Shown piece by piece: positions 48,186 through 53,058 of a stretch of 64,000 nucleotides of DNA. The position numbers were made by a program, and so were the translations under genes. The notes under the pieces were generated by a model, which saw nothing but the letters and a program-made list of their open reading frames with translations, searched no databases and was not told the origin of the DNA. The DNA lies in assembly GCF_035978755.1 (NCBI RefSeq), contig NZ_CP108414.1:5642001-5706000 (forward strand). The letters run 5' to 3'. Each line of letters starts with the position of its first letter. The stretch's first letter is position 1. Source of the DNA: Streptomyces sp. NBC_01298. GTDB lineage: Bacteria > Actinomycetota > Actinomycetes > Streptomycetales > Streptomycetaceae.

Positions 48186-48574
48186 GGGGATGATCGGTTT
48201 CGACAGCGGATGTCGATGTAGGGGAAGCGAGCCGAGAAAGCGGCAATGATCTCGTTAACCATATGTCGCAAACAATAATCGCCAACTCCAAGAGCGATAA
48301 CTCCCGCTTCACCCTCGCTGCCTAATAACAGTGAGCTGAAGCCTCTGTGAGGAGCGTCAGCCCGGAAGTGGTCCCGGTCCGGATCCTGGCGTCAATTAGG
48401 GATCTAAACCTCTAACTCCGGTCACGGGGGATAGAGGGAAATCAAACAGTGACTGAGCCCGTCGGAGACTTGTCCGTGTGATCTCCGGGGCTGAGAAAAG
48501 CGCAGCGGAATGCGCTCGGAGAAGCCCTACTTCTGCACCGTTGGACGCGGGTTCGATTCCCGCCATCTCCACCA
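48186..48574 (+). ncRNA. ssrA: Transfer-messenger RNA
   Basis: 389 nt. The 5' end GGGGATG pairs with CATCTCC next to the genomic ACCA at 48571-48574, seven pairs with one G-U. The T arm reads GGGTTCGATTCCC. The tag frame starts at GCC 48281 and reads ANSKSDNSRFTLAA followed by two TAA stops at 48323-48328. The tRNA-like half, pseudoknot-rich middle and AATAATCGCC before the resume codon fit actinobacterial tmRNA. A long T-rich terminator follows at 48583-48630. The CCA end is encoded. Confidence 0.97.
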
Positions 48575-48582
48575 CCCCATGT

Positions 48583-48630
48583 GAAAAAGCCCCCGGCTCG
48601 CGAGTCCACTCGCAGGCCGGGGGCTTTTTC
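48583..48630 (+). terminator. Rho-independent terminator of ssrA
   Basis: 15-bp perfect arms GAAAAAGCCCCCGGC / GCCGGGGGCTTTTTC with a T5 run. It is symmetric and could work on both strands. Confidence 0.95.
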
Positions 48631-48632
48631 GT

Positions 48633-48656
48633 TGTGTGGGTGTGTGGGTGTGTGGG
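48633..48656. repeat. Three tandem TGTGTGGG octamers
   Basis: TGTGTGGG at 48633, 48641 and 48649 directly after the ssrA terminator. Probably a simple repeat prone to slippage; lies in the 230-bp region before the collagen-like gene. Confidence 0.8.
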
Positions 48657-48861
48657 TGCCGGGGCTGCGCCGGTCAGAGGTGACCGGCCGTGTCAGTCGC
48701 CGATCCGCTCCTGCGTGAAGGCCGGCTGTGAGGGGGCCGTGGGCCGGAAGGTGGTCGGGTGCGGCCGACCGGTCGTACGGCAGCGTGCCGTTCACTCGGG
48801 AGCGATCCGTATATCTGATGATCGCGGCGATTGCGCAAGCCCGATCGAAAGGCGCACCCCC
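48657..48861 (+). promoter_or_regulatory. Promoter region of the collagen-like gene
   Basis: A patch of lower GC with GATCCGTATATCTGATGATCG (about 48804-48824) likely contains the -10 element (TATATC/TATCTG). GAAAGGCG at about 48847-48854 can serve as ribosome binding site for ATG 48862. No other gene fits here. Confidence 0.45.
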
Positions 48862-51354
48862 ATGTCTCTCGCCTCCTGGGCGGACCTCTCGGCGGCACGA
48901 CGGCAACTCGCCGCCGGTGCCGTCACTCTCGGCATCACCGTGGCCGTGGTCCTGCCCACGACCGCCGCGGCCGCCGGCCCGTTCGGCGGCGGTCACGACC
49001 GTGCGGACGGAAAGGTGATCACCAAGAACGCCCAGTCCGTCCACGCCGGTCCCACGACGAAGGCGAAGCGGGTCGGCTCCCGCCACGGCGGCGGACGCGT
49101 CAGCCTCAAGTGCAAGCTGCGCGGAGAGACGGTCGACGGCAACGACATCTGGTACCTGCTCGCGGACCGCGAGGGCTGGATGGCCGCCCGCTACGTGAAG
49201 AACCACCACCCGGTGCCGTGGTGCCCCGTGCAGCCGCCGGTCAAGGGAGAGAAGGGCGACAAGGGGGACAAGGGAGACCGGGGGGAGAAGGGCGACCGTG
49301 GAGAGCCCGGTCTGAAGGGTGACGACGGCGCCAAGGGCGCCAAGGGCGACAGGGGTGACAACGGCGAACCCGGGGTTGCCGGTTCGAACGGCGAGCCCGG
49401 ACGGGACGGTGCGCCGGGAGCCAAGGGTGATCCCGGCGAGCGGGGTCCGGCCGGAATCCGGGGTGAGCGGGGCCAGGACGGGATGCCGGGGGCCGACGGC
49501 CCGAAGGGCGACCCGGGCGGGAACGGCCTGCCGGGAGCCAAGGGTGATCCCGGCGAGCGGGGGCAGGACGGGGTCGCCGCGAATCAGGGAGACCGGGGCG
49601 AGCGGGGCCCGGTCGGGCCCAAGGGCGATGCCGGACGGGACGGAGATCAGGGTCCCGCCGGGCCGAAGGGCGACCGGGGGCCGAACGGCCTCGCGGGCGC
49701 GCAGGGTGAGGCCGGCGAGCGGGGTCCGGCCGGGGCGAAGGGCGATCCGGGGCAGCCAGGATCGAAGGGTGACCCGGGCGAGCGCGGGCCGGCAGGCCCC
49801 AAGGGGGACCTCGGACCGAAGGGCGACCCCGGCGGCGACGGCGCCCCGGGCCCGGCCGGCGTACAGGGGCAGAAGGGTGACCAGGGCGCTGCCGGGCCGC
49901 AGGGCGAGCCAGGCCGTGACGGTGCGGCGGGTCAGGGCGGCCCCAAGGGCGACCCGGGCGAGCGCGGGCCGGGAGGAGCCAAGGGCGATCCGGGGCAGGC
50001 GGGGCCGCAGGGCCTGCCCGGCCCGGCCGGAACGCAGGGCGAGCAGGGCCGCGACGGAGCCCCCGGACCGGCCGGGGCCAAGGGCGAGCCCGGCACGTCG
50101 GGCCCGAAGGGCGACAAGGGCGAGAGCGGCCCGGCGGGCGGGAAGGGCGACCCCGGGGAGCGCGGTCCCGCCGGTCCACAGGGTGAGCCCGGCCGCGATG
50201 GGGCCAGGGGCCCCGCCGGTGCCAACGGGATCGACGGCGCCCCGGGGACCGACGGCCGCGACGGCCGCGACGGCGCCCCCGGCCTGAAGGGGGACAAGGG
50301 CGACCGCGGCGAGACCGGACCGGTCGGCGGCAAGGGCGACACCGGCGAGCGGGGCCAGGCCGGCGCGGACGGCCGCGATGGGGCCCCCGGATCCAAGGGG
50401 GAGACCGGCGATCGGGGCGTGGCCGGTGCGGACGGCCGCGACGGGGCCTCCGGGGCGAAGGGCGACGCGGGGGAACGCGGTCCGGCGGGCACGAAGGGCG
50501 ACGACGGCGACCGCGGCCCGGCCGGGCCGAAGGGCGACCGGGGCGACACCGGCGGGAAGGGCGACAAGGGAGACGCCGCCGACGGCATCGACGGCGCCCC
50601 CGGAGTGAAGGGCGACACCGGGTCGCCGGGCCCGAAGGGCGACAAGGGCGACCTGGGTGACACCGGTACCCCCGGAGCGCAGGGTGTGGTGGGCCCGAAG
50701 GGCGACAAGGGTGACCAGGGCCAGGCCGGACCCGGCGGTGCCAAGGGCGACCAGGGGGCCAAGGGCGACCGAGGCGAAGCCGGTCCCCAGGGCCCGGCCG
50801 GTTCCGACGGCGCCACCGGCGCGAAGGGCGACCCGGGCACCGTCGGCGCGCAGGGCGTGGCGGGGGCGAAGGGGGATCCGGGCGTCCAGGGCGTGGCGGG
50901 TCCGAAGGGTGACACCGGGGCCGCCGGGCCGGTGGGTCTGCAGGGTGCTGCGGGGCCGACCGGGACTGCCGGAGCGCAGGGCGTACAGGGTTCGAAGGGC
51001 GACACCGGCGCCCAGGGGCCCCAGGGATCGCAGGGATCGCAGGGGCTCAAGGGTGACAAGGGTGACCAAGGCGAGCGGGGGCAGGCCGGGCCCACGCGTG
51101 ATCCGGTCACCCTCATCGGGGAGATCCAGGCCGTCCCGAAGGGCAGCTCCAGCAACTACAACGGTCCCGTCTGCCCGGCCGGTACCAAGGTCATCGGCGG
51201 CGGCTTCTTCCAGACCAGCACCCCCTCGGACGCGAACCTGCTCACCTCGCACCCGAACACCGACGCCAACCGGTGGCAGGTGTGGCTGAAGAACCCCGCC
51301 TCCGCGGGCGACACCGGCGTCCGCGTCTACACGATCTGCCAGCCCACCGGCTGA
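48862..51354 (+). CDS. Secreted collagen-like protein with SH3-like head and 617-residue Gly-X-Y domain
   Basis: 830 residues from ATG 48862. A signal peptide (n-region with ARRQL, h-region [12 protein letters not shown], cleavage around TAAAA-G) is followed by an SH3-like/bacterial cell-surface domain (about 45-125) with [25 protein letters not shown]. Residues 129-745 are Gly-X-Y: about 204 triplets with only two breaks, ANQ at 240-242 and an extra AD at 573-574. Triplets are charged (GDK, GER, GPK, GDP, GAD); PKGD/KGD sequences and two RGD occur. The C-terminal ~80 residues (DPVTLIGEI... [14 protein letters not shown] ... YTICQPTG) form a small domain with two cysteines. No cell-wall sorting signal. 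Trimeric triple helix with heads at both ends is predicted; the biological role is unknown. Confidence 0.93.
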
Positions 51355-51552
51355 CGGAGCCCGTGCACACACCGCGCCCCCACGACCGCCCGAGCGGCGG
51401 CCGTGGGGGCGCGGTGCCGCTGCACGGGCGGCGCTCCCCGACAGCGTGCGCGCCGACCCGGTGGCATCCGTCGGGACGGCCGAGGCGGGTGGGCCCGGAC
51501 GCCCGGGACCCGCTCGTGGGTGCTCGCTCCCCGGGCCCGTCGGGGCACGCGT

Positions 51553-53058
51553 TCACCCCGCGGGCGGGTGCTTCGCCACCGAACCCCCCGCCCGCGCGAG
51601 CCCCAGGGCGAGCACCGCCGCCCCCGCCGGGAGGGCGTACGGGGTCGTCGCGCCCCAGTGGTCGATCGCGGCGCCGGCCGTCGCGGAGCCCGCCGCGATG
51701 CCCGCGAAGAGGGCGGTGACGGCGAGGGTCATGCCCTCGTTCAGGCGGCCCGGCGGGGTCACGGCGTGGATCCGGGACATCGCGGTGACCATCACCGGGG
51801 CCGTCGCCATGCCGGCCAGCAGCAGGGCCAGGGCCAGGGGGAGGAGATGGCCGGTGGCGGCCGCCGCCAGCGGCAGGGTCATGGCTAGGGCCAGGACGCC
51901 CAGGCAGACGGGGAGCGTGCGCGGGCGCAGGGTGCCGTAGAGCAGGCCGGCCGCGCAGGAGCCGGCCGCCTGGAGGGCGAGGACCGGGCCCGAGAGCCCG
52001 CCGAGGCCGTGGGCGCCCAGGTGGGCGATGGAGGTGATCTCCATGGAGCCGAACATCGCGCCGAGGGCCAGGAAGAGCGGCAGCAGTCCTCCCAGGGCAC
52101 GGAGCGGGGACGGCCCCCGGACCGCGGGTGCGGGCGGCGGCTCGGTGGCGCGGTGAGCGGTGAAGAGCAGCATCCCGGTGAGGAGCAGGACGGCCCCGGC
52201 CAGCGTGCCCGCCTCCGGGAACGCGGCGGTGCACAGGAAGGCGGCGGCCACCGGTCCGAGCATGTACGCCAGTTCGTCCGCGGCCTGCTCGAAGGACATC
52301 GCGGTGTGCCGGGACGCCGGGTCGTCCCGCAGCAGGTGGGTCCAGCGGGCGCGGGACATGCCGCCGATGTTGGGTGTGGTCGCGGTGGCGGCGTAGGAGG
52401 CGAAGAGGGTCCAGGCGGGGGCCTCGGTACGGACGCACGCGATCAGGGAGAGCGAGCCGAGGACCGCGATCAGGGTGGCGGGCACGGCGACCCGGGCCTG
52501 CCCGTACCGGTCCACCAGCCGGGCCGTCCACGGCGCCACGAGGGCGGTGGCGGCCAGGCCGGCCGCCACGACGGCGCCGGCGAGGGCGTACGAGCCGCGC
52601 TGCCCGGCGATCATCATGACGGCGCTGACGCCGAACATGCCCATGGGGAGCCGGGCGATGAGGTTCCCGGTGGTGAACCCGCGGGTGCCGGGGAGCGCGA
52701 AGAGCCGGCGGTACGGGCCCGGGACGCGGGCCGGCCGCGCCGCGCGGGCCGGGTGCCGCGGCCGCGGCGGGGCGGCGGCGAGCACCAGCGTGGTGCCGGA
52801 GACGGCCATGAGCGGCCCGCGCGCGGCCGGGGCGGCGCGGCGCGCGGATCCACCGGACCGGGCCACCGGCGGGGTGCCCGCGAGGGGCACGGCAGACGGG
52901 CCGGCGGCGATCGGGCGGGCCACCGGCGGGGTGCCCGCGACGGGGACGGCAGACGGGATGGCGGCAGAAGGGCCGGCGGACGGCGGGATGGCGGCGGACG
53001 AGGTGGCGGCAGACGGGCCGGCGGCGACGGGGACGGCGGCCGGCGGGGTGGTGGGCAT
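51553..53058 (-). CDS. MFS transporter with long Pro/Ala N-terminal tail
   Basis: 501 residues from ATG 53058. A start at 52812 (MAVSGTT...) would remove 82 residues of Pro/Ala repeat (VAGTPPVARPIAAGPSAVP and the like) and cannot be excluded, as neither start has a good ribosome binding site. The core has about 12 hydrophobic segments; the loop between TM2 and TM3 has LVDRYGQARVAVPATL, an MFS motif-A relative. The family resembles actinobacterial drug or metabolite exporters. It is divergent from a LysR gene with 102 bp between, so the regulator probably controls it. Substrate unknown. Confidence 0.85.
   Translation of the reverse strand: MPTTPPAAVPVAAGPSAATSSAAIPPSAGPSAAIPSAVPVAGTPPVARPIAAGPSAVPLAGTPPVARSGGSARRAAPAARGPLMAVSGTTLVLAAAPPRPRHPARAARPARVPGPYRRLFALPGTRGFTTGNLIARLPMGMFGVSAVMMIAGQRGSYALAGAVVAAGLAATALVAPWTARLVDRYGQARVAVPATLIAVLGSLSLIACVRTEAPAWTLFASYAATATTPNIGGMSRARWTHLLRDDPASRHTAMSFEQAADELAYMLGPVAAAFLCTAAFPEAGTLAGAVLLLTGMLLFTAHRATEPPPAPAVRGPSPLRALGGLLPLFLALGAMFGSMEITSIAHLGAHGLGGLSGPVLALQAAGSCAAGLLYGTLRPRTLPVCLGVLALAMTLPLAAAATGHLLPLALALLLAGMATAPVMVTAMSRIHAVTPPGRLNEGMTLAVTALFAGIAAGSATAGAAIDHWGATTPYALPAGAAVLALGLARAGGSVAKHPPAG

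Follow-up and report, generated by a model that had tools for sequence, protein, structure and literature searches.

Background

Most work on bacterial collagens concerns a few pathogens and Bacillus spores. The closest described systems are the streptococcal proteins Scl1/SclA and Scl2/SclB, which are secreted collagen-like rods of a Gram-positive organism, and Lcl of Legionella, which is built from an N-terminal anchor, a collagen stalk that varies in length between strains and has PKGD in its repeat consensus, and a globular, trimeric C-terminal domain (PMC11162425). Collagen-like sequences of Streptomyces have been noted as annotated (PMC4448552), and the terms "Streptomyces" and "actinobacteria" are absent from the main text of a 2022 review (PMC8968730). 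Here we describe a collagen-like gene found in a stretch of 64,000 nucleotides from Streptomyces sp. NBC_01298 (contig NZ_CP108414.1, positions 5,642,001 to 5,706,000), the whole of which is referred to as the window. A first-pass annotation, made from the sequence alone, stated that no functional account of a protein like this was known from Streptomyces; this agrees with the matches listed in the literature on Streptomyces collagen-like proteins, where no study of one appears and where subscription papers are mostly outside coverage.

The protein and its homologues

The open reading frame (ORF) at 48862-51354 on the plus strand starts with ATG and encodes 830 residues, in the order signal peptide, SH3-like head, Gly-X-Y region and an 85-residue C-terminal domain (CTD):

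48862..48975, plus strand: signal peptide, residues 1-38, assigned by eye from the translation (basic start, hydrophobic stretch, AAAA preceding the mature part)
49009..49224, plus strand: SH3-like head, residues 50-121, with conserved C84 and C121 (Pfam and profile searches)
49246..51096, plus strand: collagen-like domain of 204 Gly-X-Y triplets, residues 129-745 (triplet count and Pfam Collagen)
49579..49587, plus strand: first break, ANQ, residues 240-242 (read from the sequence)
50578..50583, plus strand: second break, AD, residues 573-574 (read from the sequence)
51097..51351, plus strand: CTD, residues 746-830, a predicted six-stranded beta-sandwich with the conserved cysteine pair C771/C826 (AlphaFold and profiles)

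The 204 triplets span 617 residues in three runs (residues 129-239, 37 triplets; 243-572, 110; 575-745, 57), with internal duplications. They are not a product of chance, because the match to Pfam Collagen reaches 303.6 bits (E 1.7e-92; cut-off 27.2), and the protein is a member of the bacterial collagen-like proteins. Its four cysteines (84, 121, 771 and 826) all lie in the two end domains. The first-pass description of signal peptide, head, triplets, breaks and C-terminal cysteine pair was exact to the residue. On the opposite strand a frame of 976 residues is open at 48442-51372 (minus strand), likely a by-product of GC bias.

This is a real Streptomyces gene, with the same architecture present whole in four other Streptomyces. 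The close homologue in Streptomyces sp. CB01201 (L034) has a head 53% and a CTD 67% identical, with 161 unbroken triplets between them, and three further genomes also keep the order of parts: G060 with 237 triplets in three runs, G288 with 233 in two runs and G002 with 45. The whole architecture is present in at least four of 392 Streptomyces genomes, i.e. the window's own (G000, 9.7 Mb), G002, G060 and G288, a lower bound since collagen was checked solely at CTD places with loci (L107-L135, L022). A further genome, G021, was not counted: its whole protein combines a head and 31 triplets with a tail that scores just 9.9 bits against a CTD profile built without that tail, and the match of this tail in the 392-genome profile search is by construction, as it is a row of profile A1. 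Two unjoined contig-end pieces of the same genome hold a head that leaves Gly-X-Y after 16 triplets, and a CTD without head. Pairwise dN/dS values of the end domains (0.10-0.49 in four comparisons, 1.28-1.54 in two with the distant G002) are not used as evidence, because the window gene has 85-95% GC at its third positions and the sequences are highly diverged.

The gene is an accessory one, found sporadically in a minority of Streptomyces species. Frame shifts or loss in all relatives had been named beforehand as an outcome that would speak against the protein; instead, the frame is open in the four other Streptomyces, although a single-sequence search finds the CTD in just 13 of 150 genomes. 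The window's genome holds further collagen-like ORFs on the same contig, near 0.62, 3.55, 4.77 and 7.65 Mb, the one at 3.55 Mb carrying a relative of the window head at its C-terminus. The collagen-like ORFs at loci L012, L010 and L009 of this genome have different end domains; at L012 two of them lie about 2.5 kb apart, with low-charge repeats of GATGPT type.

The domain order, the lysine rule described below, the homologues and the variable genomic slot are read from sequence; the CTD fold is predicted, and trimerisation, wall binding and a role as adhesin or spacer are inferred. We propose, with a probability of about 0.5, that the protein is an exported, homotrimeric, wall-bound "lollipop". 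Three chains would associate through the beta-sandwich CTD and so start the collagen triple helix; the helix, 617 residues and about 180 nm long, would be stabilised, in the absence of hydroxyproline, by salt bridges between chains that link Lys at Y with Asp or Glu at the following X. Hyphal peptidoglycan would be bound by the SH3-like domains at the N-terminus, so that the rod would project outwards from the wall and carry the CTD trimer at its tip, acting as surface adhesin or spacer. Its gene would be an accessory one, placed here in a variable slot after ssrA.

Charged pairs in the Gly-X-Y region

The residue following Lys at position Y was determined in 13 collagen-like ORFs or pieces, with the expectation for the window protein taken from 2000 shuffles of its triplets. 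In this protein 44 of 45 such lysines precede Asp or Glu, compared with 15.9 in shuffled triplets, and none of the 2000 shuffles reaches 44. The homologues follow the same rule (CB01201 29/31, G060 25/26, G288 28/30, G002 7/7), as do three G021 pieces (4/5, 5/5 and 7/9) and the collagen protein of the window's genome with a C-terminal head (23/26). In the ORF near 0.62 Mb the pattern is weaker (6 of 11, against 1.9 in shuffled triplets); the remaining three collagen-like ORFs of that genome have at most one Lys at Y each. Triplets are non-independent owing to the internal duplications, yet the relatives have Gly-X-Y regions of differing length and composition. For Arg at Y no enrichment was seen in the window protein (8/23 followed by an acid, shuffled 8.1), while it was in CB01201 (6/8), G060 (4/4) and G288 (3/3).

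KGE and KGD pairs have been reported to raise the melting temperature of a triple helix by 15.4 and 17.5 degrees C, respectively (PMC7824840). The lysine pattern thus fits the salt-bridge rule of triple helices rather than cell-binding motifs, and the protein is probably a secreted, triple-helical rod held by charged pairs. Scaled from a 474-residue bacterial construct (2 x 79 triplets) about 140 nm long (PMC7824840), the predicted length for 617 residues is about 180 nm. The earlier proposal of a secreted rod stabilised by charged pairs is therefore supported and can be sharpened to Lys(Y)-Gly-Asp/Glu, which holds in four homologues. The make-up of the charged pairs differs from that first given: KGD is commonest (41), GPKGDK occurs just 3 times and GDPGER 5 times. 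The companion idea, that RGD and KGD bind other cells, is not supported. RGD occurs twice (residues 164 and 560), with no enrichment over a shuffled mean of 5.3 (130 of 2000 shuffles are as low), and KGD is accounted for by the salt-bridge rule; since the charge pattern suits a hydroxyproline-free helix, a cell-binding role for RGD is superfluous.

Such rods might alternatively be joined into fibres by lysyl oxidase, as in animal matrix. That enzyme was found in 44 of 150 Streptomyces genomes, among them G046, whose related collagen protein bears the head C-terminally, and the presence of collagen-like genes in Streptomyces is in line with this as well (PMC4448552). However, the search of the window's genome and that of the carrier G002 found no lysyl oxidase, and the 44 positives do not include the carrier G060; the same paper deems lysyl-oxidase cross-linking of bacterial collagens unlikely (PMC4448552). 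For the window protein cross-linking is largely refuted.

The C-terminal domain

The CTD has no family match in the copies of Pfam, NCBIfam and PHROGs searched. Its AlphaFold model is confident, and the best structural alignments are with the C-terminal modules of PCSK9 (13-15% identity) and with resistin (10-15%), though neither sequence comparison nor Foldseek gave a significant match. Both of these proteins work in threes, and both are cysteine-rich, unlike the CTD with its two cysteines. A profile match to collagen IV NC1 (E 4e-4) was rejected, as it summed short CPxG matches, none of which passes alone.

An alignment search yielded 25 CTD proteins, 24 of which were used to build profile A3 (P0004, with two copies, was left out). 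By profile the domain is present in 120 of 392 Streptomyces genomes and, across the class, in 50 of 296 sampled genomes. Among Streptomyces ORFs with several copies, 8 of 13 have three in tandem, a suggestive sign of assembly in threes. Relatives of the CTD also occur alone as small secreted proteins. A search of about 5.8 billion proteins with the CTD or head alone gave nothing at E <= 0.001 (38 and 44 candidates), a result uninformative on absence, as homologues exist.

Several individual occurrences are worth recording. The window's genome itself encodes a 310-residue frame (G000:C1:100302-101231, minus strand; L173) with three tandem copies, the third weak. Another Streptomyces genome (G265, L172) has 11 CTD matches, including four frames of 338-461 residues within one stretch, each with one copy at its C-terminus. 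Two short hypothetical proteins, from Streptomyces sp. NPDC101132 (P0003) and Streptomyces sp. 5.8 (P0009), resemble the tail of the window protein; P0009 starts with unrelated residues, so a collagen part may be concealed there by the gene call or by a change of frame.

The CTD is predicted, from its modelled fold, to be a trimerisation cap. More tentatively, it may found an unnamed bacterial family built on the threefold beta-sandwich known from resistin and the PCSK9 C-terminal modules and serving as a general actinobacterial trimer maker, forming homotrimers on rods (one copy per chain) and pseudo-trimers where three copies lie in tandem on one chain, as in resistin and PCSK9, respectively. 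It is unlikely, by our estimate, that instead the head nucleates the trimer, with the CTD as a ligand-binding tip that need not trimerise. The N-terminal variable domain of streptococcal Scl does nucleate trimers (PMC8968730), and the solitary small secreted relatives of the CTD would suit a ligand-binding tip. This is countered by the threefold modules being the best fold matches of the CTD and by its tandem triples. Moreover, SH3-like domains are usually monomers.

The SH3-like head

The window head scores 20.8 bits against Pfam SH3_3 (PF08239), below the cut-off of 27, while the head of its closest homologue exceeds it (29.0 bits). Its two cysteines are invariant in all seven aligned heads. 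A profile of these seven (A2) matches PDB entries 8b2f, 8b2g, 8b2s and 8b2h (E 2e-11 to 3e-9), the SH3-like domains of fungal muramidases (GH24/GH184); the remaining 51 of the 55 matches are antibody chains at E 1e-6 or weaker and were taken as spurious. Domains of this type are termed cell-wall-binding, and one binds Micrococcus cells (PMC10394673). In the muramidases they are joined to enzymes, whereas the window head is joined to a collagen rod without enzyme. AlphaFold gave no usable fold for the head (pLDDT 39.8). The head type is present in 58 of 120 genomes; among the 30 head ORFs with loci, to which the collagen check was confined, Gly-X-Y runs are absent from 24 and present in six, the window's own included, and the head occurs at either end of collagen rods.

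With its nearest solved relatives binding walls, the head is more likely to be a wall anchor than a second trimerisation cap. The first-pass proposal of caps at both ends is therefore retained, by prediction, for the CTD but not for the head. A different destination for the protein is that it is released, the rod working in the extracellular matrix or a pellicle and the head binding another ligand or shed wall fragments. No LPXTG, other sorting signal or membrane anchor is seen in the translation, the head falls under the SH3_3 cut-off, and the ligands of SH3_3 domains are mostly unknown; on the other side stand the wall-binding relatives of the head and its occurrence at either end of rods. 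We consider release a possibility of some weight, though an improbable one.

Genomic context

The surroundings of the gene include the following features:

48186..48574, plus strand: ssrA (tmRNA), a neighbour outside the collagen unit (ARAGORN)
48585..48629, plus strand: terminator-like hairpin and T run after ssrA (sequence reading)
48596..51606, no strand assigned: segment without DNA match at the same place in G012, between a matching ssrA flank and a matching MFS gene, i.e. inserted or replaced (DNA comparison)

Upstream lie an ABC ATPase gene (ftsE by position), ftsX, an S41 protease gene, smpB and ssrA, the last ending 287 bases before the ATG of the collagen gene; downstream follow an MFS gene, a LysR gene and a hemD-like gene. 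A pattern scan recovers only the inner part of the hairpin (48614-48626), with a site number no higher than in shuffles. Given this terminator-like hairpin, the collagen gene probably has its own promoter; a consensus search revealed none of sigma-70 type.

Of 36 same-genus relatives with an ssrA match, 26 were taken for comparison, and none has a head or CTD after ssrA. The distance from ssrA to the start of the MFS match is 133-393 bases in ten of these, 862-2390 in five and more than 7 kb in three; in the remaining eight the DNA examined has no MFS match. In G012, the closest relative examined by ssrA (98.7% identical), the match stops at 48595 and resumes at 51607. The same slot holds YoeB/YefM toxin-antitoxin pairs in G012 (L095:3260-3786) and G006 (L142:520-1139), and in G023 (L101:3830-8167) an RHS-repeat protein of 1445 residues with a weak WXG100-like start.

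The neighbours of the collagen gene in CB01201, G060 and G002 differ from those in the window, while G060 and G288, which are close to each other, have a TetR gene and a SIR2 gene in common. Next to the collagen gene, three of the four homologues carry a TetR gene ending in TetR_C_13 (L034:5454-6089, L102:4397-4975, L136:510-1088), in CB01201 on the opposite strand; it is a possible regulator of the collagen gene, absent beside the window gene. Because the slot is variable and the homologues lie elsewhere, the window gene appears to be one cargo gene, its link with ssrA incidental: the adjacency first reported is correct, but none of the 26 relatives shares it, and it has no apparent meaning.

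Capture of a phage-fibre-like or mobile-element protein at ssrA would also explain this location, as ssrA is a known integration site, the slot after it is variable, collagen-like stretches occur in phage fibres and the CTD has distant fold matches among viral proteins. The latter are mostly uncharacterised, with a best E of 0.0021 and no rows at E <= 0.001 in Foldseek. The signal peptide, the location of the homologues elsewhere and the CTD's lack of a PHROGs family speak against such an origin, as does the absence of CTD tblastn matches in 72,556 plasmid and 50,697 phage records; no further copy of the ssrA 3' end was detected in the window. We regard it as very improbable.

Comparison with known systems

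The NCBIfam models of the described proteins score below their cut-offs: 295.3 for Lcl (cut-off 500; best stretch 117-343, mainly the collagen part), 373.8 for Scl1/SclA (400) and 287.9 for Scl2/SclB (325). In Scl the N-terminal part is a variable domain and the C-terminus carries an LPXTG anchor, which the window protein lacks. Lcl is anchored by an amphipathic helix and contains DUF1566 in its CTD (PMC11162425), compared with an SH3-like head and a family-less CTD of 85 residues here.

The strongest new points are the lysine rule and the unnamed CTD family. The protein provides a long collagen free of hydroxyproline, whose Lys-acid rule has almost no exceptions, together with a small candidate trimer cap that might be put to use in recombinant collagen. 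It also suggests, in a testable way, how a filamentous Gram-positive cell could construct a long rod bound to its wall. By analogy, Lcl may serve as the closest working model, with ends unrelated to those of the window protein; the rod is of a known kind, the pair of anchor and cap and the CTD family are new parts, and their combination appears undescribed.
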